From Pseudobdellovibrionaceae bacterium (GTDB taxonomy: Bacteria; Bdellovibrionota; Bdellovibrionia; Bdellovibrionales; JAMPXM01), in assembly GCA_947462815.1 (NCBI GenBank), contig CANHQR010000009.1, forward strand, positions 1 through 64,000: a stretch of 64,000 bases of DNA, written 5' to 3'. The notes under the pieces are model-generated. The model was not told the origin of the DNA. It did no database searches and worked only from the letters and a program-made list of their open reading frames with translations. Below are positions 1,450 through 13,927 of this stretch, piece after piece. The translations under genes were made by a program, and so were the position numbers. Each line of letters starts with the position of its first letter. Within the stretch, counting starts at the first letter, position 1.

Positions 1450-2226
1450 GTGACGAACTTCTCGACCAAGCTTTTTCGGTCCTTGCTGTTGGCCCTTGGC
1501 CTGGTGAGCTTTTGCTCGTGGACAACTCCAGCCCAAGCCGCTGTGACTCTCACCGTCTTGGAAGATGACGTCGTGGCCTATTCGGGGCCTGGGGAAAAGT
1601 ATCGACCTCTCGCTGTGCTCAAGGCCAACACGGAACTTCGCGCGAGCTCCAAAGTTTTTGAGTCCGCACAGGGACGGTTTTACAAAGTGATTGTCAGCAC
1701 AGGCGAAAAGCAGCGGGCCGTGGGGTTCATCTCTGTGAGCGCCGTTGTGAAAATGAGCGGTGCCGAAGATAACGTCGATCTGGAAAAGTTTGGCGTGGTC
1801 GCCCTCGTCGATTCCGCCGTGCAGTTTAGCTACGCCAGTCTTAAAGATCGGCAATCCATTTGGACCGTCGGCTACATGAGCTATCTGAGCCCGGGCTTTT
1901 ATGTAAAAGGCTTTGGCGGTCAGTGGCTGGCCCCATCAACGCAAGGCTCTTTGGCGGGCGGAGAAATCGGCAACGACGCTCTGTTATTTGGGGCGGTTTC
2001 GGGCTTTGTGCAGTATCAGGTCGCCGCACTCAGCACGGGTGCAAAAGACGGCTTCTTTGCGGGCAGCACACCGCTGAATGTGTTCATGGGTGCAGGCGCC
2101 GGTCTCCGCTACAACTTAGGTGGCGTGGCTTCCATCGCGATCGGCATCAATCAGGTTGCCATCTACAATGCAAACAACAGTCTGGTTTCCAACGGCCTGC
2201 TGATGAGCTTGGAGGCCGGCTTATGA
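1450..2226 (+). CDS. exported SH3-like / outer-membrane-type protein
   Basis: Read from GTG at 1450 (TTG at 1447 is also possible) the product has 258 residues. The longer frame from 1285 adds a polar, non-protein-like leader and was rejected. The N-terminus is a clear signal peptide (KLFRSLLLALGLVSFC, cleavage near AQA). It is followed by a bacterial SH3-like domain at about residues 30-90 (VAYSGPGEKYRPLAVLKANTELR), a fold that usually binds peptidoglycan or partner proteins. The C-terminal half is Gly-rich with alternating aromatic residues (YVKGFGGQW, FMGAGAGLRYNLGG), as in outer-membrane beta strands. Its stop overlaps the start of the DUF3570 gene, so the two are probably translationally coupled. 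The function is probably structural within the DUF3570 redox cluster, which is an inference. Confidence 0.7.
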   Translation: MTNFSTKLFRSLLLALGLVSFCSWTTPAQAAVTLTVLEDDVVAYSGPGEKYRPLAVLKANTELRASSKVFESAQGRFYKVIVSTGEKQRAVGFISVSAVVKMSGAEDNVDLEKFGVVALVDSAVQFSYASLKDRQSIWTVGYMSYLSPGFYVKGFGGQWLAPSTQGSLAGGEIGNDALLFGAVSGFVQYQVAALSTGAKDGFFAGSTPLNVFMGAGAGLRYNLGGVASIAIGINQVAIYNANNSLVSNGLLMSLEAGL

Positions 2227-3413
2227 GCACGCGTCATTTTTCTCGCTGCGCCTGGGCGTCTCGCTTCTGTTGGATGTCCTGCTTCGCCTGGGCGTCTCGA
2301 TCGCGCCTGATTCAAACGGCATGGCTCTGTCTCGTGATGGAAGTCCTGATGCTGGTGGCCCCGCGGGCCTATGCCGCGACAGAGGCCTCAACTGTTCTTC
2401 GCCGTTACGACGACAGCAAAACGCAGGTGCTCTCCCCTTCCGTCGAAGTCACATCGACTTTCAACGAAGATCGAATGACTCTTTCCTTCGAACACACACA
2501 AGATTTGCTCACCAGTGCATCCAGCGAAGTGAAAACCTACGCCTCACAAGGCAAAATTACGGATCACCGCAAGGAATTTGGCCTGAACTTTTCCTCGCTG
2601 ATTCCGGACGGGAATATCTCTTTTGGTGTAATCACTTCAGACGAAGAGGACTACAACTCGCGCATCGTTGTCGCAGGCGGCACGCGCGAATTCTTCCAAA
2701 AGAATACGACGGTGGGCTTTGGCTTCGCCACAGGTGCGGACGTGATCCGCGCCAACGGCAACCCGACCTTCATTGAGGGGATGAGCCATCAGATCTACTC
2801 AATTTCGTTGGCGCAGATCCTGAGCAAACAAGCGATCTTTCAAATACTCTACGATTTTCGCGTCGAGAACGGCTATATCGCCAGTGCCTATCGCCGCGCC
2901 AAGGTTATTTCTGGAAGCTCCATCGTTGCCCTTTCTGAGAATCATCCCCGAACCCGCAATCGGCATGCGGTCGGTTTCAAGTACAACTACTTTTCCAATG
3001 CTCTCAAGACGTCTTTCGCAACGGCGTATCGAATCTATCAAGATAGCTGGGGTGTAATGTCGCATACGCTTGAAGAGCGAATCTCTTACGAGTTCAGCCG
3101 AAAGTTCGAGATTGCCACCACGCTCCGCTTCTACACGCAGAACAAGGCGAAGTTTCATAAAGACTACTACGTGGGCGATCCCGGTCCTTTCTACACCGGC
3201 AACAACACGTTGGGGACCTACAACTCCATCAATCTCGGCGTGAGGCCCTCTTGGAACATCACCGATAAGTTCAACCTCTCGGCTAAGTTTGAAGCCTACC
3301 AGCAACGCTTTCAGGACGTGACCGCCGCCAACCGCCTGGAAACTCTCGACGATGACGAGCGCCTCAAGATCGATGCCTTCGTGGTCGGTTTAGGCATGTC
3401 GGCAAAGTTCTGA
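2223..3413 (+). CDS. DUF3570-family outer-membrane protein
   Basis: The ATG at 2223 overlaps the TGA of the upstream gene (ATGA). The upstream-extended frame is the shadow of that gene and was dropped. The 396-residue product has a signal sequence ending near PRAYA. It is then built of amphipathic strands in pairs: VEVTSTFNEDRMTLSFEH, KEFGLNFSSL, TTVGFGFATGADV, HAVGFKYNYFSNALKTSF, EISYEFSRKFEIATTLRFY. It ends in a phenylalanine (GMSAKF), the usual C-terminal signature of an outer-membrane beta barrel. DUF3570 genes are commonly found beside DUF4266 lipoproteins, TlpA-type thioredoxins and ApbE; the first two follow directly here and ApbE lies 9 kb away. The substrate is unknown. Confidence 0.85.
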   Translation: MSTRHFSRCAWASRFCWMSCFAWASRSRLIQTAWLCLVMEVLMLVAPRAYAATEASTVLRRYDDSKTQVLSPSVEVTSTFNEDRMTLSFEHTQDLLTSASSEVKTYASQGKITDHRKEFGLNFSSLIPDGNISFGVITSDEEDYNSRIVVAGGTREFFQKNTTVGFGFATGADVIRANGNPTFIEGMSHQIYSISLAQILSKQAIFQILYDFRVENGYIASAYRRAKVISGSSIVALSENHPRTRNRHAVGFKYNYFSNALKTSFATAYRIYQDSWGVMSHTLEERISYEFSRKFEIATTLRFYTQNKAKFHKDYYVGDPGPFYTGNNTLGTYNSINLGVRPSWNITDKFNLSAKFEAYQQRFQDVTAANRLETLDDDERLKIDAFVVGLGMSAKF

Positions 3414-3703
3414 ACTCCTCCACAATCCGCAGCGCCCGTATCAAAGCGAGACCACCTTGCCTCATTTCGAGAATCCCTCGAGTCCAAGATTGGGATGCCG
3501 ATAAAGATCAAGCAAGATGAAGAGGCCATCGGTGGGTTTCCTTGCGCGTCTCGCGGCAAGCGGCGGCGCCTGTGGAGACAAGTCGAGGAACTCTTTGGAA
3601 ACATCAACAAGTCGATTCGACCGCAAAATCTCAAAAGGTCTTCGGTTGACGACGAATGCGCGGGCAATCAATTTGCCACCGACAGAAACTGAGGAGCGTT
3701 GGA

Positions 3704-4303
3704 ATGTCTCTGCGAGTAAGCCGAAATGATCAAAGATCTCACCGCAACACGCATATCGAAAACGAAAATCGATCGTCGCATGGACTCCGCACCGTAGCCC
3801 GAGTTGGCTTCTTTGCGTCCCTCTTTGCGTTCACTTGCTGGCTCAGTCTCTATCCCATCTCCGCCGAAGCGAAAGCCAAAGCTGGGCAAAGCTTTCCGGC
3901 CCTCAAGGTAGCGCCTTTTCCAGGCAAAGCGCCTTTGAATGCAAAGTCGCTTCAGGGCAAAGTTGTGATCTATGACTTCTGGGCGGCTTGGTGTGAGCCC
4001 TGCAAAGTCGAGCTTCCCGCTCTCGAAAAGCTCTACCAAAAGTATAAAGGTCAGGGTCTTGTCGTGGTCGGCGTCAATGTCGATGATGACGCCAATGACG
4101 GCAAAGCCTTTCTCCAAGATCACCCCGTCAGCTTCCCCGTCGTGTACGACAAAAACAAAGGCATGGTGGAGGGCCTGGGTGTGGAGACAATGCCCACCTC
4201 CTTCATCGTGGATCGAAGCGGGAAAATTCATCGCGTCCATGCAGGATTCAAATCCGGCGACGAAAAGAAGCTCGAGAAAGAGATTGTTGAATTGCTGAAG
4301 TGA
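3704..4303 (+). CDS. TlpA/ResA-type thioredoxin-fold protein
   Basis: The start at 3704 is fixed by GAGGAG at 3691-3696, and the product has 199 residues. After a basic N-terminus and one hydrophobic anchor or signal segment (about residues 32-55, GFFASLFAFTCWLSLY) comes a thioredoxin fold. The redox motif WCEPC is at residues 96-100, a central GVNVDDDAND segment follows, and a cis-proline loop sits at TMPTS. The domain should face the periplasm and reduce disulfides, as TlpA/ResA proteins do for cytochrome c or copper-site maturation. It lies between the DUF3570 and DUF4266 genes, 31 bases before the latter. Nearby heme-c proteins (CXXCH) are plausible clients, since heme ligation needs reduced cysteines. 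The exact partner is inferred. Confidence 0.88.
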   Translation: MSLRVSRNDQRSHRNTHIENENRSSHGLRTVARVGFFASLFAFTCWLSLYPISAEAKAKAGQSFPALKVAPFPGKAPLNAKSLQGKVVIYDFWAAWCEPCKVELPALEKLYQKYKGQGLVVVGVNVDDDANDGKAFLQDHPVSFPVVYDKNKGMVEGLGVETMPTSFIVDRSGKIHRVHAGFKSGDEKKLEKEIVELLK

Positions 4304-4334
4304 TCAAGAGAGTGCGGTCTTTGAGGAGAACGAC

Positions 4335-4631
4335 ATGAGAGCCCAAGCCACACAGATCCTGCGACACACCTCTGGCCAGAGCTGGACCATGGATAGGACT
4401 TGGCATTTGCTCTCACGCGCACTGCTTTTAGCTCTCGTAGGTCTCGGCTTGAGTGGCTGCGGGATCTTAGGAAAGCGTGTGAGCGCCTTTGAGAAGGCGA
4501 ATCTGGCAAAGCCCGGAATGGCGCTCGTTGCGGCTCCCAAAGAACAGGCGCACATGAATCACATGTTCAACGCGCGCGAGGGCTCAGTCGGAGGCTTTGG
4601 CGGCGCAGGGGGCGGCTGTGGCTGCAACTGA
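4335..4631 (+). CDS. DUF4266-family lipoprotein
   Basis: The product has 98 residues, with GAGGAG before the ATG at 4335. A second ATG at 4389 would give a more typical short signal peptide. The lipobox LSGC puts the lipidated cysteine at residue 42. The mature part is short and has the DUF4266 hallmarks: a segment like FEKANLAKPGMAL, then a Gly-rich tail ending GGGGCGCN-style (here GGAGGGCGCN). The terminal CxC pair suggests metal or disulfide chemistry, but its role is not established. The family usually neighbours DUF3570 and ApbE genes. The next gene begins inside this one in another frame. Confidence 0.85.
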   Translation: MRAQATQILRHTSGQSWTMDRTWHLLSRALLLALVGLGLSGCGILGKRVSAFEKANLAKPGMALVAAPKEQAHMNHMFNAREGSVGGFGGAGGGCGCN

Positions 4632-5112
4632 TCTTTCAGCATCATCATCGACGACGACTCGTCGAGCATCGCGATCCTCGGGGCCAGGCTGGGGTTTGCG
4701 CTTGCTGGGAACTCTCGGCGCCATCTTGATGCTAGTGTCTTATCAGAACTGCAGCGTGGAGATGAGTCGCGAGACGCCAGGGGCATCGGTATCAGGCTTC
4801 TGTACAACTCTCTCCGCTGGCGACCTCGCGACACTCACGCCCGCACTCACCGCCATGAAGACTCACTGCGCGAGTTGTCACTCGACCGACGGGGGAAGCC
4901 CTTCAGCAGGATTCAAAGTTCCCGCCGCAGCTGATGACGTGAACTCCACAACGGTTCAAAATGAGGCGCACCTCAATATGTGCGCACGCGGTTACTCGAA
5001 GGTTCTTTCGACAATCGATCCAACTTCGGCCAAGCAACACGCGGGCGGCAAGTTCCTCCGCTCCACCTCAAGCGTGACGCCGATCTACTCGTGGCTGGAA
5101 ACCCAGCTCTAA
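4597..5112 (+). CDS. [FY]QNC lipoprotein with one heme-c motif
   Basis: The product has 171 residues if read from TTG at 4597; GTG at 4618 is an equally possible start. The gene overlaps the DUF4266 gene by 35 bases or less. The N-terminus is polar, then comes a hydrophobic segment (LLGTLGAILMLVS) running straight into YQNC, with the putative lipidated cysteine at residue 52. A single CASCH at residues 91-95 is a canonical covalent heme attachment site. Around it the sequence resembles small class I cytochromes or the PSD1 cytochrome c domains. No clear distal Met was identified. It is the first gene of a run of [FY]QNC and CXXCH proteins, presumably co-functioning at the cell surface or periplasmic face. 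Confidence 0.75.
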   Translation: MAAQGAAVAATDLSASSSTTTRRASRSSGPGWGLRLLGTLGAILMLVSYQNCSVEMSRETPGASVSGFCTTLSAGDLATLTPALTAMKTHCASCHSTDGGSPSAGFKVPAAADDVNSTTVQNEAHLNMCARGYSKVLSTIDPTSAKQHAGGKFLRSTSSVTPIYSWLETQL

Positions 5113-5423
5113 CATCAACGACTGTCATCGTCCTATGACCAACTCTTGATTCGGCTTTCGCAAGTGGCCGTGAGCCATTAGCCGCTTGAACTCGCACCAA
5201 GCTCAGCCCTGAGCTGCTCTCTCAGGAAGTGACTGATGTGTCGACACCTGTCTAAGCCCTGGTGGGTTGGACTGACATTTGACGTGGATAAACGAAGCTG
5301 ACACGGCATGGGTTCTGCTCCCTCTCTACTCGGTGACCGCGAATCGAGTGGCGACTTTCGCTAATCGACTAAGGTCGGGGTGAGACTTAGCCGACAAGGG
5401 GTTGTTGGCAGGGGGGTTCAGAG
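5113..5423. other. intergenic region before the cytochrome operon
   Basis: About 310 bases contain no credible gene. A short inverted repeat (GTCGG at 5374-5378 and CCGAC at 5391-5395) and a G-rich run just before 5424 are visible. A promoter for the 5424-9054 genes probably lies here, but I cannot place -35 and -10 boxes with confidence. Confidence 0.4.
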
Positions 5424-6731
5424 ATGACGTCTTATTTTGAGACGACTTCGGGGACGACGACGTTCATCCGCATCGGTGGCGGCGTTTTACTTGGTGTCGC
5501 AGCGTTGTGGAGTCGACCGGCGCAAGCCCAAGCTCCCGTCACCCCCATCGTGCAATCGGTTCCGGACCCCACGGCCCCGATCTCGGCTCAGCGAGCTCGT
5601 GCGCAGCGCTTATTTCAGGCCCTTACGGCCGTGCGTGTGCCGATCGATGATCCCCGGCTGGGCCAGATGGAACTTTTGTTGCGGGCGAACCGATTTCAAG
5701 ACGCGGCGGCCATCGCAACAGCCGATCCGCTTTTCTACGACGTTCGCGTTCGCGACATCGCCCGCGCGATGTCCACACGCGATGCCTCGGTTCGCGCCTC
5801 GCTCAATGATTTTGTAACGACCTTCGTCGGCGTGGTTCGCGACTCCGATACGACGAGCGCCAAGGAACTCCTCACAGGAAACTTCTTTTATCAGGTCGAT
5901 CCTACGATCGCGGGCACCGCGACACCGGCGATTCGCAGTACCGATAACGATATTTTTTCGGTAGCCGGCAACAATGCTGCTCCGAACCACTACTTGGATC
6001 TTGAGGCACGAGGCCTCTCCCTCCACAACGTACTTCGTCGGCGCTCACCTCAGCGAGCCTTCGTAAACGGCGCTTTGGCGGACCATCCCGATCCGGCGGG
6101 ACTGATCACTTCAACAGCCTTCATGCAAGCCCACGCCGTGGCCGGCACGAATCGCCGTTTAGTTGAATACACCTTCAAGATGTTTATGTGCGTGACGATG
6201 CCGGAGTGGGCCGACGGTTCGGCCTCAGATAACCGCGTTGGTCGCGACGTGGATCGTCAGCCTGGCGGCTCACTCAATACTTACCTGACAAGCTGTAAGA
6301 CCTGCCACGCGCAGATGGATGGATTCCGCGGTGCCTTTGCCCACGTCGACTTTGTCAACGGTCAATCTCGACTGACACCTGCGACAGTCAATGCGAAAAT
6401 GAATCGCAACGCGAACGAATTCCCAGCGGGGTTTCAAACTGCGAACAACTCGTGGGTAAACCACGCGACCAACGGCAAGAACGCTCAGCTCTTCGGGTGG
6501 CGCACGCCCCTGCAGGGCAACGGCGTGGCCCAGTTCGGCCGGGCCATCGCCGAAAGCCGCGGCTTCTCTCGTTGTATGGTGAAGCGCGTGTTTGAAGGCG
6601 TCTGCGGCCGTAGCCCAATGCCCACTGAAGAGGGCCGGATCCTTGATCATGCCAACCAATTTGAGGTCGACAACTACCACCTTCGCCGTCTGTTTGAGCG
6701 AGTCGCGCTCGACAACGCTTGTGTGCAGTAA
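5424..6731 (+). CDS. exported cytochrome-c-like protein (DUF1588/DUF1585-like)
   Basis: The product has 435 residues and an N-terminal signal peptide (GGGVLLGVAALWSRPAQAQA). The middle section carries a CKTCH heme motif at residues 291-295 followed by AQMDGFRGAF, which closely recalls the CHARMDPIG region of DUF1588. The last hundred residues (FGRAIAESRGFSRCMVKRVFEGVCGRSP, then NYHLRRLFERVAL) recall DUF1585. Both domains occur in the large multidomain cytochromes of Planctomycetes and myxobacteria, which are usually encoded beside DUF1501 or DUF1552 proteins. Here a DUF1501-like gene lies two genes downstream. Heme attachment implies a periplasmic or surface redox role, but the substrate is unknown. 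The family match is from memory of motifs. Confidence 0.75.
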   Translation: MTSYFETTSGTTTFIRIGGGVLLGVAALWSRPAQAQAPVTPIVQSVPDPTAPISAQRARAQRLFQALTAVRVPIDDPRLGQMELLLRANRFQDAAAIATADPLFYDVRVRDIARAMSTRDASVRASLNDFVTTFVGVVRDSDTTSAKELLTGNFFYQVDPTIAGTATPAIRSTDNDIFSVAGNNAAPNHYLDLEARGLSLHNVLRRRSPQRAFVNGALADHPDPAGLITSTAFMQAHAVAGTNRRLVEYTFKMFMCVTMPEWADGSASDNRVGRDVDRQPGGSLNTYLTSCKTCHAQMDGFRGAFAHVDFVNGQSRLTPATVNAKMNRNANEFPAGFQTANNSWVNHATNGKNAQLFGWRTPLQGNGVAQFGRAIAESRGFSRCMVKRVFEGVCGRSPMPTEEGRILDHANQFEVDNYHLRRLFERVALDNACVQ

Positions 6732-6745
6732 TGGAAGGAGGACAA

Positions 6746-7456
6746 ATGAAATTTTTAAAGAGCCTCCGCGAAATGTCCCTCTCGAAACGCCGAAAGATCA
6801 CCGCATCGATCAGTCTGCCCGCGATGGCGGCCGTGATGATCGTCGGCTTTCAAAACTGTAGTCCGGGAATGATGGAGACGAAGGGTTCAAGTGTGGCGGA
6901 TCCCAATGACAATCCCGCCCCACTCGACATCACTCAGGACACGAAACCCATCACCATCGTGTATTCGGAAAACCTGTTGATTTCGATGCAGCAAATGGCG
7001 GGTGTTACAAGCATTCCCGCAGCCAAAATCACGCGCTTTCAGTCAGCTAAGACCAAGATCACTGAGACGGGTAAGGTCGATAGCGTGAACGCTCCGATGA
7101 TGTCCGCGATCGCGAATACAGCGGCCGACGTCTGCGACGAATTGATCATGCGTGAGCGCACTCTCGCTGCGGGCGATCGACGCTTTTTTGGCCAGATCGA
7201 CTTCGCCAATATTCAGGGAAGTGCCGCAATTACCGAAGTCGCCAAAGATGATGTCATTCGTCGCATGGCTCGCTCCTTCTGGGGACGCAATGAATCCTCG
7301 GCCGAACGCATGCTGATCAAGCGTTTGCTCGATGAAGCGATGGCCGAAGGTCGACCCGCGAGCTTCACGGCCACAACGGCGGCGACGGACACGGCCAATG
7401 CGATGCTCTTTACCTGCACGTCGATGATGTCCTCACTGGATGCCATCAAGATGTGA
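6746..7456 (+). CDS. [FY]QNC lipoprotein, function unknown
   Basis: The ATG at 6746 follows a strong GGAAGGAGG site 5 bases away, giving 236 residues. The N-terminus is a basic segment (KSLREMSLSKRRKITAS), then a hydrophobic stretch (LPAMAAVMIVG) and FQNC with the cysteine at residue 38. The mature protein is mostly helical, with no heme motif; two cysteines occur near VCDELIM and FTCTSMM. It sits 15 bases after the cytochrome-like gene and its 3' end abuts the DUF1501-like gene, so it belongs to the same operon. It could be an accessory or anchoring subunit, which is inferred from position only. Confidence 0.7.
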   Translation: MKFLKSLREMSLSKRRKITASISLPAMAAVMIVGFQNCSPGMMETKGSSVADPNDNPAPLDITQDTKPITIVYSENLLISMQQMAGVTSIPAAKITRFQSAKTKITETGKVDSVNAPMMSAIANTAADVCDELIMRERTLAAGDRRFFGQIDFANIQGSAAITEVAKDDVIRRMARSFWGRNESSAERMLIKRLLDEAMAEGRPASFTATTAATDTANAMLFTCTSMMSSLDAIKM

Positions 7457-7512
7457 GGAACTTAGAGTCCGGGGCGATTGAGCAGCTAAGCTTCTTGGGC
7501 GTAGGGGGAAAA

Positions 7513-9054
7513 ATGGGACGCAATCAGAAGACCGAGATCATCGAAAAGCAGGTGCGTGACCGAGTCACCGGCGAAGTCCGCACGGCTCGCTTTCACGCCG
7601 ATCACGGTCGCCCGACCTCACGGCGGGACTTTCTGGCCAGCGGCGCACTCGGCTTTGTCGGCTACATGATGACACCCTCTGTGCTCAGCTTGCTCACGCG
7701 CTCGAAAGCCTATGCGCAGACCTCTGACACCTGCGTGGTCCCCGATGCCGGTCTGCCTCTCTTCTGCACGGTGAACTTGTCGGGTGGCGCTTCGCTCTCG
7801 AGCAACTACATTCCCCTCGGTGCCGCGGGCTCTTCAGGTCGAGATCCGATCTCGACCTACACGGCCTTGGGCCTTGGCGCCGGCAACGCCTTCTTTCAAG
7901 ACGCCACTCGATCGCAGAGCTTATTTCAAGGTGTGAGAATGGCGGGTGTTCTCAACGCTGCAGGTGGAACACCTGGCGCGACCGCAGGTTTCTTCTGGCG
8001 AGGCGTGATGGAGCGCGCGACAGCCGCAACGATCGATCGCACCTCGATGATCGCGATTTGCGTCACCACCAACGATGACACCAGCCAAAACCAACTCGAT
8101 GCCTCAGGCCTCGTCATTGCCGCGGGTCGTTCGGGCGAATTGCTCCCCAATTTGGGAACCAACGGAGGCACAGGTACGGGCGTGAACCAGCAAGCGGCAC
8201 GCATTGATCCACCTGCGCCTCTAATCGTAGGCGGCATCGCGGACATCGTGAACTCACTCCGCCCTGTGGGCGTGCTGGGAACGAATCTCTCGGAGCCTCG
8301 GCGCCGCAAACTCTTTGAGCTCGTCAACTCGCTGTCCGGCACACAGGCTCGCAGCATCGCCTCTCCGAATTCGGCAACAGGACAGGTTCTCTCTAAACTC
8401 GTCGAATGTGCCACGGGCAAAAACGTAGAGCTCGCATCGCGATCTCCCGTGGTCGACCCCAACGGCGATACGGTCAACGGTGGCTCCGGGGTGATGACGG
8501 CTTTCGCGGCAACCGCCAACAGCACAGCACACGCTCAAGCCGCGATGGTTTACAACGGCTTGCTGGGCAATGCCTCGACGATCGGTTACGACCTCGGCGG
8601 ATACGACTATCACGGTTCAGGTCGAGCCAATCAAAACAACCAAGACCAAGCCGCAGGCCGCATCGTGGGTTCCGTTTTGGAGTCGGCTCGAGTGATGAAT
8701 CGACCTGTCTTCATATATGTGACCACAGATGGCTCGGTCGGTTCGGCATCCGACACATTTGGCGCTGACTTCAACTCGGATCGCGGTCTAGGCGGTATGT
8801 CGTATTGCATCGCCTACGATCCCAATGCACGCCCCCGAGTGAAGAGCGACCGCTTCGGCTATCAGGTTGGCCACTACACCGCCGGCCAAGGCGCTTCGAC
8901 GGACTCCACCACACCCGTACCCAACGCGGAACGCGCATCGGCCGCCGCCTTTGCGAACTACCTTGCGTTTGCCAAACAGCGCACCATCTTGGATCGCGTC
9001 TTACCGGGCTATTTTGAGACACGCCAGCTCGATGAAGTGATCCGATTCGAGTAA
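7513..9054 (+). CDS. Tat-exported DUF1501-like protein
   Basis: The ATG at 7513 follows AGGGGGAA and gives 513 residues; the in-frame GTG at 7453 lacks a good site. A twin-arginine signal is plain: SRRDFLA at residues 36-42, a hydrophobic stretch (GALGFVGYMMTPSVLSLL), and AYA before the mature start. This means export in folded form. The body has features of the DUF1501/sulfatase-like superfamily, with long loops, GYDLGGYDYHG near the centre, and VFIYVTTDGSVGS, GADFNSDRG and YQVGHYT segments. DUF1501 proteins are regularly paired with DUF1588/DUF1585 cytochromes, as here. No catalytic function is proven for the family. Confidence 0.75.
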   Translation: MGRNQKTEIIEKQVRDRVTGEVRTARFHADHGRPTSRRDFLASGALGFVGYMMTPSVLSLLTRSKAYAQTSDTCVVPDAGLPLFCTVNLSGGASLSSNYIPLGAAGSSGRDPISTYTALGLGAGNAFFQDATRSQSLFQGVRMAGVLNAAGGTPGATAGFFWRGVMERATAATIDRTSMIAICVTTNDDTSQNQLDASGLVIAAGRSGELLPNLGTNGGTGTGVNQQAARIDPPAPLIVGGIADIVNSLRPVGVLGTNLSEPRRRKLFELVNSLSGTQARSIASPNSATGQVLSKLVECATGKNVELASRSPVVDPNGDTVNGGSGVMTAFAATANSTAHAQAAMVYNGLLGNASTIGYDLGGYDYHGSGRANQNNQDQAAGRIVGSVLESARVMNRPVFIYVTTDGSVGSASDTFGADFNSDRGLGGMSYCIAYDPNARPRVKSDRFGYQVGHYTAGQGASTDSTTPVPNAERASAAAFANYLAFAKQRTILDRVLPGYFETRQLDEVIRFE

Positions 9055-9112
9055 GTCGACTGATTTTGAGATAGACTGTTCGGAGAGGGACGTTGGATTC
9101 GATGGGGGATCG

Positions 9113-9970
9113 ATGAACGGCACTTGGGGCATAAAGCACCGTCGTAAAGGTTGGGCAACTCGCCTGACTCTCGGTCTCGCAGCCGCCTGCTGTATTATGC
9201 TCTACCAAAATTGCGGAGCCGATTTTGTGCCGATGAATCTCGACTCGGCTTCCGGAGCCTTCTTTGTTTGCAATAACGATCAGAGATCCAACTTCGAGCG
9301 CACTGCCTACAACCGCGTTCTCCGCACCCTCGCCTGCAAAGAATGTCATCGCACCGGTGGAATCGGAACCGGTGTGTTTGCCGATGCGGATCTGTCTCTC
9401 GCCTATGCGGACTTCACCACACGTGGCGCCGCAAAAATTCAACAGTATGCTACCACAGACCATCAAGGCGCTGGCTCGCCCGCCAACAAAACTTGGGTTG
9501 ATGCCGAGTTCAGCAAATTTACATCCTGCCAAGAAGGTGGCGGTGCGACTTTCCAAGCTTTGACTCGAGAGAAGCTCATCTCGGCCGGAACCACCGACGC
9601 CATTATGACGTTTGACTTGGACACGGAGCTCACTCAAGGCCCCAGCCCAACCGGAGCTCGATTGCACTTCCTCATCCGGCGCTCAACGGCGGCTGATGCC
9701 AGCACCATTTATCATCTCTCGCGACCTAGCCTGCAGACCACGTCGCGAGGCGTTCGAATTCGCTCGATTAAAATTCGCATCAATGGGCAGCTGGTCACGA
9801 CCTTCTCGACGTTTTCCAACGTGGATCGCAGCATCAACCCGAACACGAGCCATCTGACCGGCACCCAGCTCAACGGAAACCTCGAAACTGCAACAGGTCT
9901 CACACCGGCGTCGAGCACGGCCTCAGAGGACCGAATTCAGCTTGAGATCGGTACGCTCGAAACCTTCTAA
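9113..9970 (+). CDS. [FY]QNC lipoprotein with heme-c motif
   Basis: The product has 285 residues. Its leader (ATRLTLGLAAACCIML) runs into YQNC, with the cysteine at residue 34. A CKECH motif at residues 75-79, preceded by a helix-like segment (FERTAYNRVLRTLA), is a typical single heme-c site. The C-terminal half (about 150-285) is beta-rich with many Ser and Thr (VRIRSIKIRINGQLVTTFSTFSNVD) and looks like a separate binding domain. I know no name for it. It starts 58 bases after the DUF1501-like gene and closes the cytochrome group. It may donate or accept electrons for the 5424 protein. Confidence 0.72.
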   Translation: MNGTWGIKHRRKGWATRLTLGLAAACCIMLYQNCGADFVPMNLDSASGAFFVCNNDQRSNFERTAYNRVLRTLACKECHRTGGIGTGVFADADLSLAYADFTTRGAAKIQQYATTDHQGAGSPANKTWVDAEFSKFTSCQEGGGATFQALTREKLISAGTTDAIMTFDLDTELTQGPSPTGARLHFLIRRSTAADASTIYHLSRPSLQTTSRGVRIRSIKIRINGQLVTTFSTFSNVDRSINPNTSHLTGTQLNGNLETATGLTPASSTASEDRIQLEIGTLETF

Positions 9971-10079: not shown

Positions 10080-11471
10080 ATGGCCCAACCCACACCCGCC
10101 CTGCAAGCGCTTTGGACAGATCCACTCTATCCTGACTCCGCATCTCTGGATCGCTCGGCGAAGACCATATGGAAATCGACAGTTCAGCCCGAGCGTCAGT
10201 TTCTCGTCCTCGATGGCGTGCCCTGGCTTTTTCCTGAGCCCACGCGCGCCTTGGTGGAATGGCGTGAGCGAAGTCTTCAGCTGCTTCAATTCCTAGAGTC
10301 CGAAGTCGCTGACCTCAAGATACAAGCGAACGAAACCTCATCAAAGCTGACGCGAATTCGCCTCAGCGAACTTCGCCGCCTCAAAATCCTGCATCTCGAA
10401 TACGTCCGCCGCACTCTCGAACCGCTCAAGGTCCATGACTGCAAGCGACTTATCCCCGGTCCTGAATTCTATCGCTTACCGCTGCGCCAAGGTCTGCTCG
10501 GCTACGCGCCCAACGCCGTTCGCGACTGGTCCCCAACAGCCTTTGCCGGTGAGAATGAACGTCTGCTCGAACTCGTGACGCAGCAAATGTCGCCCGAGTT
10601 TTCCGGCTCACAGCGAATCGCTGTGCTCGGTTGCGGCGCCGGTCGGCTCGCTTACGATCTCGCACAAATGGGCCACCGTGTGCTCGGCCTCGATCTCAAT
10701 CCCCTTTTGTTATTGGCCGCAAAGGAGTTCGCATTTGGTGGCGCCCCCCGCACCAGCGCGGACTTCCCTGTTCAGGCGATCGATCCGGATCGCCCGGGTC
10801 GTGAGGTCAAACTGGGCGGTTTCGCCCCCGCCTCTGAAGAAAAACTCAGCTTCGCCCTCGCTGACGTTTACCAAATCCCGCTGGCTCCAGCGAGCGTGGA
10901 TCTTGTGATCACTCCCTGGCTCATCGACATCCTTCCGCGCCGTTTCTCCGAGCTCGCAACGGAGATCGCTCGCGTGCTTCGCCCCGAAGGCGGCTGGATT
11001 AATGCAGGCTCTTGGCGTTTTGACTTTCGCTCAGAGAGCGAGAACCTCTCTTTGCCCGAGGCCGAAGAAGTCGCAGTGGGCTACTTTAGACCCCTTCGCA
11101 CGCAGCGCGCTTCAATGCCCTATTTGCAGTCTTCCCTCGATGCCCATCGTCGAGAAGAAGTGCTGACTTGTTTCAGCTGGCAACGCAATAGCAGTCCGTC
11201 ACCTCACACTCGACCGCGAGCCGATGATCGAATTGAGTGGCTTCGAGATCCACAAATGAGTATCCCCGCTCTCCCTGTTTTCTCGGCCGCTGCTGCCACT
11301 CACCGCGCGATGAGTGAGCTCCTCAAGGAAGTCGATGGCCGTCGCTCCATTCAAGATCTCGCGGCGACGTTGAGATCGCGCCACGGTATCGCCGAAGCCG
11401 AGGCCCTCGTGGCCGTATCCGCGTTTTTCGACCGATTCCTGCAGGATCGGCGGTTTAGGGACTTCTCGTAA
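10080..11471 (+). CDS. SAM-dependent methyltransferase, carnosine-N-methyltransferase-like
   Basis: The product has 463 residues with no signal peptide. A Rossmann-type SAM site is clear: IAVLGCGAGRLAYDLAQMGHRVLGLDLNPLLL, with GCGAGRL as motif I and the acidic LDLN after strand 2. The GAGRLAYDLA/N-P-L-L-L pattern resembles the N2227 (carnosine N-methyltransferase) family rather than ordinary UbiE types. Motif IV would be VDLVITPWLIDILP. The last 90 residues (MSELLKEVDGRRSIQDLAATLRSRHG) resemble a PqqD-like or winged-helix module, which could bind a peptide substrate. It follows the cytochrome cluster by 109 bases in the same direction. The substrate is unknown. Confidence 0.75.
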   Translation: MAQPTPALQALWTDPLYPDSASLDRSAKTIWKSTVQPERQFLVLDGVPWLFPEPTRALVEWRERSLQLLQFLESEVADLKIQANETSSKLTRIRLSELRRLKILHLEYVRRTLEPLKVHDCKRLIPGPEFYRLPLRQGLLGYAPNAVRDWSPTAFAGENERLLELVTQQMSPEFSGSQRIAVLGCGAGRLAYDLAQMGHRVLGLDLNPLLLLAAKEFAFGGAPRTSADFPVQAIDPDRPGREVKLGGFAPASEEKLSFALADVYQIPLAPASVDLVITPWLIDILPRRFSELATEIARVLRPEGGWINAGSWRFDFRSESENLSLPEAEEVAVGYFRPLRTQRASMPYLQSSLDAHRREEVLTCFSWQRNSSPSPHTRPRADDRIEWLRDPQMSIPALPVFSAAAATHRAMSELLKEVDGRRSIQDLAATLRSRHGIAEAEALVAVSAFFDRFLQDRRFRDFS

Positions 11472-11669: not shown

Positions 11670-12563
11670 TCAGCTCACTCGAATCAAATAACGATTGTGG
11701 TAGTACGCATACAGCGTAAGAACGTCGCGCAGGCCACCCATTTTCTTGGCCGTGCACCAGGTTTTTCGAGACAAAGACTTGACGTTGTCTCTAAGCATCG
11801 CTGCGGTGTGATTGATCGTGAACAAAGGGTCAAAGCCGCCTTGCCTCAATTCTCCGTAGTCACCGTAGCGAGGTCGCATAGCCTTAAACCGAAAGTGCTC
11901 GGCATGAGGGAAGTAAGCTTTCACGAGCTTGGGGTAAGCTCGATGTTCGTCTGTCTTCAAGATGCAAGTTGGCTCGACCAAGCCCTGCAGTCGCACAAAA
12001 AAGTTGCACCGCTCAGCCGGCCGACGATCCGGTCTCGGACCATATTTTTTTCGACCTTTCCTCCCGAGCTTTCCGACGGCAGGGAACTCAGCAAAATCAA
12101 ATGCGACAATCCGGCGACGATCGCTCACCGCGAGCATGATTGAAACTCGATTTGCACGCGCGTGAATGAAGGTTTCCATTTCATCAAAATAAACGCTCAC
12201 CTCAGGGGCACGCATCTGTCGCTCACTCAATTCGACGATCCTAATGAATTCCGCCACACGTCGAATTACGCGTGCCACCGTGTTGCGTGAAGCCTGATAT
12301 TGCAAGGCAATACGTCTTTGTGTCTTTGCGGAACTCACTTCGTGAACAACGACACTACACAAATCAAGACGTCGCATGCGCCAAATCGGTGTTCCTGTAC
12401 TTCGCGAATAGGTCCTACGACATCGCGTGCAGCGATACCTCTGTTGAACCGATCCATCATTAGCTCGGTTAAATCGACCAAAGCGATGAACTCGCGTTGG
12501 TCGATCACAAAAGGGACATTCAGCTTGAATCGCTCGAGTTGATGGCATCGAGACACCTCGCAA
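11670..12563 (-). mobile_element. IS1-like transposase (fused InsA/InsB type)
   Basis: This is a 297-residue single-frame transposase. The N-terminus is a zinc ribbon (C16, C19, C45, C48), then a helix-turn-helix like InsA (RRIALQYQASRNTVARVIRRV). The catalytic part lines up with InsB: YFDEMETFIHARAN, then TDEHRAYPKL, then NHTAAMLRDNVKSLSRKTW, ending in YYHNRY. IS1 itself needs a frameshift to join InsA and InsB, whereas this copy is already one frame. It looks intact. I could not find terminal inverted repeats or a target duplication by eye. It lies between the methyltransferase and apbE, so it probably separated apbE from the DUF3570 cluster. Family placement is moderately sure. Confidence 0.8.
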
Positions 12564-12646: not shown

Positions 12647-13927
12647 TCACCGGGGCCATCTTGGGAGGTGGTGCGTCCCCCACTCCGTCTCGACTCTCTG
12701 CAACCCTTTGGTCAGCCAAACTCGGCCCTGATCATCAACGATCACCGCGTGCAAACCGCGTTTTTCTAAGATCGGAATCGCCTTCTCAGCTCCCATCACG
12801 AAGGCGGCCGTATCCCAAGCATCCGCATCGAAACCTCGACGGGCGATCACGGTGACTTGTCGAGACTTCGTCGCCGGGCGACCCGTGCGCGGATCGATAA
12901 TATGGTGAACTCGCTGTCCGTTTCGCCAGAAGAATTTTTCGTCGTCACCAGCCGTCGTGATCGCCAAATCGGTACCGTAAATTCGCAGAATGATTTTCGA
13001 GTGATCCCGCGGATCCCGAATGGCCGTCGTCCAAAGCGTTTTCTTGGGCGTCTGCCCCCAAAAAATCGTATCGCCACTTCCATCCACGTAGCCGCCCGGA
13101 TAGCCAAGCAGCCGAAGCTCATCCGCGACAATTTGCGCGGCGTAGCCTTGCCCAACGGCCCCAAGGCCGAGCTTCATTCCCTCACGCTTCAAATACACAC
13201 GCTGGGGCGAGCCCGGGCGCAGCTCGATATCCTGCCAACGAATGAGTGGCCGTCGTTGCGCGATTTCGGCGCTCGACGGTTCTCGCTCCTGGCCAGGCTT
13301 GAAGTTATAGAGTCCAAAAAAGACATTGAAGCTCGGGTCGAACGCACCTTGGCTCACTCGTGCCACCTCCAAGGTTTGCTTAAGCAGTTGCCAAAGTTCA
13401 GGCCGCACGGCGACCGCCTCCTGTCCGGCTCGCGCGTTCACTTGCGAGAGCTCGGATGAGGGCAACCAATCGCTCATCCAGAGATTCATCTGGGCGATTT
13501 TCGCAAAAGCCGCCTCGAGGTCGCGCGTCGCTCGCTGAACTCGCTCGGCCTGCTCTGCACCCAACAGCGGAACATTGAGGCAAATCTTGAAGGGCGTGCC
13601 CATCTCGACTTTTTGGCCACAAATCAGCTCTTGTCCCTCAGGCGGCGTCAGCGTCGGCGGCGGCTCAGCGCGGAGCGACCCAGCGAGCTTCGGCTGGGCG
13701 CCCTCACTCACCTGGCGACCGTCGGAGCCTTGACGAATCACTCCTTCCATTTCACGCGTGGTGTTCGTGCTCGAGCAGCCCAGCGAAGAGAGAAGCCAAA
13801 CCGCCCAGGATAGAACAACCCGCACGCGAACGCCCCACTGGCCATCGCGAATCCCTCTCCAGCATGAATTGAAGGGCAAAGACACCTGTCCGGACTTTGA
13901 GGCAAACAAACTCTTGATCTCTAACAC
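12647..13927 (-). CDS. apbE: ApbE-family FAD:protein FMN transferase (lipoprotein)
   Basis: The product has 426 residues, starting at GTG 13927 with AGGAG five bases before it. A hydrophobic leader ends in LSSLGCSS, a likely lipobox. ApbE signatures follow in order: SELSQVN, AFDPSFNVFF, KLGLGAVGQGYAAQIVADEL, YVDGSGDTIFWG, the AITTAGDDEKFF region, HHIIDPRTGRPA, and DADAWDTAAFVMG. These residues bind FAD and Mg2+. The enzyme transfers FMN from FAD to a threonine in a target protein on the outer side of the membrane. Such enzymes commonly sit with DUF3570, DUF4266 and TlpA genes, which lie 8 kb to the left here. No flavin-acceptor (FMN-binding) protein is obvious in the window. Confidence 0.92.
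   Translation of the reverse strand: MLEIKSLFASKSGQVSLPFNSCWRGIRDGQWGVRVRVVLSWAVWLLSSLGCSSTNTTREMEGVIRQGSDGRQVSEGAQPKLAGSLRAEPPPTLTPPEGQELICGQKVEMGTPFKICLNVPLLGAEQAERVQRATRDLEAAFAKIAQMNLWMSDWLPSSELSQVNARAGQEAVAVRPELWQLLKQTLEVARVSQGAFDPSFNVFFGLYNFKPGQEREPSSAEIAQRRPLIRWQDIELRPGSPQRVYLKREGMKLGLGAVGQGYAAQIVADELRLLGYPGGYVDGSGDTIFWGQTPKKTLWTTAIRDPRDHSKIILRIYGTDLAITTAGDDEKFFWRNGQRVHHIIDPRTGRPATKSRQVTVIARRGFDADAWDTAAFVMGAEKAIPILEKRGLHAVIVDDQGRVWLTKGLQRVETEWGTHHLPRWPR

Follow-up and report, generated by a model that had tools for sequence, protein, structure and literature searches.

What could a cluster of predicted heme-binding, exported and lipid-anchored proteins be doing together in the envelope of a bacterium? 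This question is raised by positions 1 to 64,000 of contig CANHQR010000009.1 from a Pseudobdellovibrionaceae bacterium (assembly GCA_947462815.1), a stretch referred to below as the window. Five of its plus-strand genes, here named g1 to g5, lie between 4597 and 9970, and an earlier note on this DNA had described them as an operon of unknown role, with three CXXCH proteins, one protein exported by the twin-arginine translocation (Tat) route and lipoproteins with a [FY]QNC signal. All five open reading frames (ORFs) have been found at those coordinates, and the five-gene heme/Tat/[FY]QNC operon is confirmed as a real observation: one CXXCH site per protein is present in g1 (CASCH), g2 (CKTCH) and g5 (CKECH), the lipobox reads YQNC in g1, FQNC in g3 and YQNC in g5, and g4 carries the twin arginine in TSRRDFLAS. 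The operon is a real and conserved variant, split and lipid-anchored, of a known, functionally dark cytochrome system.

Relationship of g2 and g3 to DUF1592-type cytochromes

The gene g2 (5424–6731) encodes a predicted exported heme protein, and g3 (6746–7456) a predicted lipoprotein with no heme site. In Pfam, g2 of the window reaches PSD2/DUF1585 only below threshold (E = 2.9e-4; 20.9 bits against a cut-off of 25.8). Among the aligned relatives of g2, DUF1585 is found in 23 of 38 and DUF1588 in 10 of 38 proteins, with best E-values of 2.2e-7 and 4.9e-4, respectively, and for g3 a weak PSD5/DUF1595 match appears in 3 of 36 relatives. The kinship was settled by hhalign, for which 16 canonical DUF1592 proteins from the relatives served as the reference. 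Here g3 matches columns 62–266 (P = 1e-6, and 0.32 for the reversed profile), g2 matches columns 282–607 (P = 3.5e-13, reversed 0.59), and g4 has a P of 0.27. Since the two genes match adjoining columns with these reversed controls, g3 and g2 are, at the profile level, consecutive parts of a DUF1592-type protein, that is, its N-terminal half (DUF1595 region) and its C-terminal half (DUF1592/DUF1588/DUF1585), with the gene order swapped here. In addition, since g5 and g3 are one protein in Gammaproteobacteria, the window carries a split form. The earlier note had likened the operon to the DUF1588/DUF1585 systems of Planctomycetes and called it smaller and lipoprotein-anchored; both statements are borne out.

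Compared with the planctomycete cytochromes (PSCyt1/DUF1587/DUF1595/DUF1592/DUF1588/DUF1585) and their DUF1552 partner, the operon shares the succession of parts, a CXXCH in the DUF1588 part and a Tat partner gene alongside, and the canonical versions in Bdellovibrionota are often [FY]QNC lipoproteins too. On the other hand, the window form consists of separate polypeptides (g3, g2 and g5) in another gene order, its Pfam scores fall under the cut-off, and its Tat partner is not DUF1552. Canonical proteins were searched for by PF07631 (DUF1592), PF07586 (DUF1552) and PF07394 (DUF1501), with no match to any of the three in the window genome; elsewhere, DUF1592 was matched in 41 of 146, DUF1552 in 43 of 146, and DUF1501 in 28 of 60 genomes searched. 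NCBIfam gave nothing useful for the window proteins, and PDB sequence searches gave no usable match for g2 and g4. The AlphaFold model of g2 has a predicted local distance difference test (pLDDT) score of 90.4, and its best PDB fold match has an E-value of 4.9, that is, no solved counterpart.

Conservation and gene order across lineages

Relatives of g4 are present in 78 of 148 related genomes (58 of 108 among the good ones), so that the distribution of the system is widespread yet patchy. The order g2-g3-g4-g5 is repeated in ~37 of 41 Bdellovibrionales loci from different genera, and g2 lies near g4 in 75 of the 86 loci that bear g4, on the same strand without exception. A scan of public genomes, with a 15-member alignment as the query, has found relatives in Bacteriovoracia, Oligoflexia, Myxococcota, Woeseiaceae and other Gammaproteobacteria. 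The co-occurrence across Bdellovibrionota that the earlier note proposed to check is seen, and extends outside this phylum. The core block is rearranged in Gammaproteobacteria, Myxococcota and Bacteriovoracia: in the first, g2 is followed by a fused g5+g3 lipoprotein, often with LamG, and then by g4 and a methyltransferase, and Bacteriovoracia resemble the window in having separate pieces. In Gammaproteobacteria, a divergently transcribed protein of ~928 residues, with two CXXCH sites and a hydrazine-synthase-alpha middle domain, is found beside the operon (L128:1624-4413 and 22 other loci).

The case made in the earlier note depended on the CXXCH sites being conserved among orthologues. Actually, they are kept in 48 of 48 g2 relatives and 30 of 30 g5 relatives, with the heme Cys and His as invariant columns; in g2 these are C291, C294 and H295, in the DUF1588 region. 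Gene conservation, split architecture, heme motifs and the Tat and lipid signals can thus all be read from the sequences.

The methyltransferase downstream of g5 (10080–11471, plus strand) carries a CARME/Methyltransf_11 domain in Pfam and is presumed to use S-adenosylmethionine (SAM). Because its family adjoins g4 in 37 of 86 loci across phyla, including Gammaproteobacteria, and always on the same strand, it belongs to the module, and the operon boundary is to be extended to it. Its catalytic domain is that of the carnosine N-methyltransferase family (CARME, 5yf0), from which it differs by additional sequence at the N-terminus and by a PqqD-like stretch at the C-terminus, the latter below the Pfam cut-off. 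We considered whether this stretch might be a RiPP recognition element (RRE) for the long g4 N-terminus, and dropped the idea because loci with and without the methyltransferase show no clear difference in the length of the extension before the twin arginines.

The Tat protein g4

The gene g4 (7513–9054) is a predicted Tat substrate by its signal, as the twin-arginine motif precedes a hydrophobic stretch and the RR is invariant in 67 aligned sequences. The same alignment keeps GG, D189, D365-Y-H367, D406-G, D423 and Q451 (numbered from ATG 7513), and the conserved motifs GGYDYH and SDGSV, together with a further Asp, make up a likely metal site. Right before the twin arginines, an HxxHx[KR]Pxx-like motif is commonly conserved across phyla, and the long n-region of the window protein (g4 N-terminus, 7513–7635) is predicted as two strands. 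A 784-residue FQNC lipoprotein at L067:7502-9856 has a g4-like body and looks like a Sec/lipid-anchored version of the Tat protein.

The AlphaFold model of g4 (pLDDT 81.7) retrieves from the PDB by Foldseek mainly sulfatases, alkaline phosphatases, cofactor-independent phosphoglycerate mutase (iPGM) and MCR-type phosphoethanolamine transferases. Most of the best structural matches (STS 1p49, TAB5 AP 2iuc, choline sulfatase 6fny, MCR-1 5ylc) come from the alkaline phosphatase/sulfatase superfamily, to which g4 likely belongs, though this membership is weak: the template modelling (TM) score is ~0.2 at ~10% identity, and g4 has GG for the typical nucleophile region.

The earlier note had called g4 DUF1501-like, and this part of its comparison is not supported. 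None of 39 family members matches DUF1501 (PF07394) or DUF1552 (PF07586) in Pfam, and the window protein has no match in Pfam or NCBIfam. The profile searches it suggested have thus turned out positive for DUF1585 and DUF1588 in g2 relatives and negative for DUF1501 and DUF1552 in g4. By hhalign, g4 aligns over nearly its full length, weakly, to DUF1501 (P = 0.0026) and DUF1552 (P = 0.0061), with reversed controls of 0.35–0.69, and DUF1552 and DUF1501 match each other at 1.6e-7. Tat export, the role of PSCyt neighbour, the probable alkaline-phosphatase superfamily fold and the motif order (D-x-H, an acidic residue, D, common to g4 and DUF1501) are shared. We read g4 as a third lineage, itself diverged, of such Tat partners, related to DUF1501 and DUF1552 distantly at best, and not as a DUF1501 protein.

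The predicted cytochrome lipoproteins g1 and g5

The two remaining genes encode predicted c-type cytochrome lipoproteins. The first, g1 (4597–5112), matches Cytochrom_C below threshold (E = 0.0093) and has relatives at the same position in 4 close loci. The second, g5 (9113–9970), has no Pfam match in the window, and its relatives match PSCyt1 in 14 of 30 (best E = 3.9e-9) and Cytochrome_CBB3 in 26 of 30 cases; C34, C75, C78 and H79 are invariant. In the long relatives of g5, the C-terminus holds a further cytochrome c domain, of class I (bc1 cytochrome c subunit, E = 3e-7; CBB3 in the long g5 of L042, E = 1.2e-7). Domain comparison finds the window g5 without this domain, for which g1 may stand in.

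An unusual lipobox and a paralogue of signal peptidase II

The lipoboxes of the predicted lipoproteins g1, g3 and g5 depart from the canonical L[AST][GAS]C by Asn at -1 and Gln at -2, and the lipobox Cys is invariant in g3 and g5. Lipoboxes were counted genome-wide by pattern searches. Of the 23 [FY]QNC matches in the window genome, 15 come at the close of a hydrophobic signal segment; the reversed pattern matches 11 times. Across the window's family the two patterns count 438 and 157, and in five genomes outside the order 131 and 110. Among 107 lipoprotein-like N-termini in Bdellovibrionales loci, many of them from the operon's own families, 61 have Asn before Cys; among those unrelated to these families it is 10 of 41. 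In Bacteriovoracia-type loci, g3 and g5 read [FY][NT][HQN]C, and their neighbours mostly SSC or SGC. Longer versions of the operon are preceded by FG-GAP propeller lipoproteins that carry [FY]QNC signals as well (L048:12694-14484, L056:11983-13860, L105:3831-5909 and others).

A paralogue of signal peptidase II follows the operon in 7 of 7 Bacteriovoracia-type loci whose sequence passes g5, although these loci are related to each other and are not seven independent events. No such paralogue follows the operons with canonical lipoboxes at L106 and L109. This LspA2 has a C-terminal extension of ~130 residues (e.g., L108:11833-12699) and its counterpart, a second LspA, turns up in almost all Bdellovibrionales genomes searched; in the window genome it is at G000:C98:4819-5679 (L247:4783-5814), away from the operon, with 38% identity and E = 8e-56. 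The signatures are GNVxDR and FNxADxxQW in LspA2 and GNYIDR and FNxADxAIV in ordinary LspA, with both Asp residues kept, which we take to be the catalytic Asp of LspA. The extension had been read from the sequence as a HAMP domain; this was rejected, as neither HAMP nor any other Pfam family matches it.

We suggest, with more doubt than conviction, that [FY]QNC and [FY][NT][HQN]C may form a lipoprotein signal class of their own, with LspA2 as its dedicated peptidase. In Bacteriovoracia, LspA2 would lie in the operon and serve its two lipoproteins, and in Bdellovibrionales it would be encoded elsewhere and the signal used genome-wide, perhaps for sorting lipoproteins to the cell surface. Three genomes count against the link: G033, which is 98% complete, has FQNC, HNC and SNC lipoboxes, with no long LspA2 found, and G005 and G009 have no LspA2 match. 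Unless LspA2 is divergent or was missed there, these three show that LspA2 and the QNC lipobox do not always occur together. Our literature search for FQNC together with Bdellovibrio found nothing.

Start codons and neighbouring genes

For two genes of this operon, the longest ORF probably begins ahead of the true start. For g1, the start at 4597 falls within the upstream DUF4266 gene, and TTG 4696 (MRLLGTLGAILMLVSYQNC) is possibly the start instead. For g4, the GTG at 7453 is unlikely and ATG 7513 is probably the start; it follows a GGGGGA stretch and is M21 in the numbering of the long ORF, a residue that hardly varies in the alignment. The start of g3 is ATG 6746.

Upstream of the operon (2178–4631) are genes for DUF3570, a TlpA/ResA-like redoxin and DUF4266, the last with the C-terminus GGGCGCN. 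Beyond the operon, on the minus strand, an ORF at 12647–13927 resembles the ApbE flavin transferase, and between it and the methyltransferase sits a 297-residue ORF (11670–12563, minus strand) that resembles an insertion sequence (IS) transposase with a zinc-ribbon start, both judged by eye.

Proposed function and its alternatives

We propose that the operon encodes an envelope heme-redox complex with a metal-binding g4, perhaps acting on glycan, and give this reading a probability of about 0.42. The gene fusions and the gene order suggest that the products of g2–g5 form a complex. The DUF1592-type protein is divided between g3, which would be lipid-anchored and free of heme, and g2, which would be soluble and carry the heme, and g5 and g1 would add further c-type hemes on lipid anchors. 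The g4 protein would fold in the cytoplasm, probably around metal, be exported by Tat, and dock as an alkaline-phosphatase-fold partner in the place that DUF1552/DUF1501 take in planctomycete systems. The whole would most likely be a periplasmic or outer-membrane redox enzyme, in which g4 and g2 hold the substrate (a glycan or glycan ester would be plausible) and the hemes of g2, g5 and g1 relay electrons into the pool of periplasmic cytochromes; the methyltransferase probably modifies one of the components in the cytoplasm, prior to export. Here we infer the metal site of g4 and the electron route, and we guess at the substrate, the direction of the reaction and the target of the methyltransferase. 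A glycan-like substrate is our guess because of the LamG and surface domains in larger relatives and the carbohydrate-binding domains on some PSCyt proteins; PSCyt3 genes have been described as adjoining families of unknown kind, and the function of PSCyt genes as unknown (He et al. 2017, PMC5615132).

Several points weigh against this proposal. The window's own proteins are without LamG, and no glycoside hydrolase or sulfatase has been noticed beside the operon. Only one Foldseek match of g4 reaches E <= 0.001 (best 7e-4), which is weak. To our knowledge, no enzyme activity is known for any DUF1592/DUF1552 system. In addition, g4 has GG where we take the first metal ligand/nucleophile region of the superfamily to be, and may therefore be non-catalytic.

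This invariant GG also fits a rather unlikely alternative, in which the alkaline-phosphatase fold of g4 has degenerated, the hemes have a structural or sensory role, and the operon builds a surface or outer-membrane assembly instead of an enzyme. The larger operons agree with such a scaffold as well, since their FG-GAP propeller, LamG, Big or cadherin-like domains are typical of surface proteins; what it leaves unexplained is that D189, D365, H367, D406 and D423 of g4 do not vary across 67 sequences from several phyla, and that Tat export fits a folded, cofactor-bearing protein. Less probable still is a module of electron export or redox defence, in which the cytochromes pass electrons to an outside acceptor or reduce peroxide and g4 is accessory. 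The operon does have several heme lipoproteins, long g5 has a class I cytochrome domain, and in Halobacteriovorax the operon is followed by a CXXCH protein that weakly matches a beta-barrel (L108:12871-14034, E = 0.05), but there are just one to two hemes per protein, and neither a porin-multiheme pair nor a peroxidase signature was found.

Envelope biogenesis via thiol or flavin chemistry might be suggested by the position of the operon after TlpA, DUF4266 and DUF3570 and near the ApbE-like gene, and TlpA and DUF4266 also precede g1 in close relatives. The neighbourhood comparison has weakened this explanation, which we now regard as very improbable: a link between the TlpA-DUF4266 pair and the operon is all but confined to the window's family, and in the other sampled lineages the core block occurs without that neighbourhood. 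A chance grouping of unrelated cytochromes and a Tat protein, for which nothing but the weak Pfam scores of the window proteins speaks, is refuted by the like order and strand across phyla, the fusions and the invariant motifs.

Implications

Beyond the earlier note, the analysis adds the reading of g3 and g2 (and g5) as one split protein, the conserved methyltransferase, the presence outside Bdellovibrionota, and the tentative link of the odd lipobox to a second signal peptidase II. As the window genome has a single small split copy without canonical paralogues, and divergent copies exist in a genus taken to be Bdellovibrio, a clean deletion should be possible. A structure of g2 would be new, because its confident model has no counterpart among solved structures. 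If true, the link between the lipobox and LspA2 would mean that predatory bacteria have a lipoprotein route specific to their lineage.

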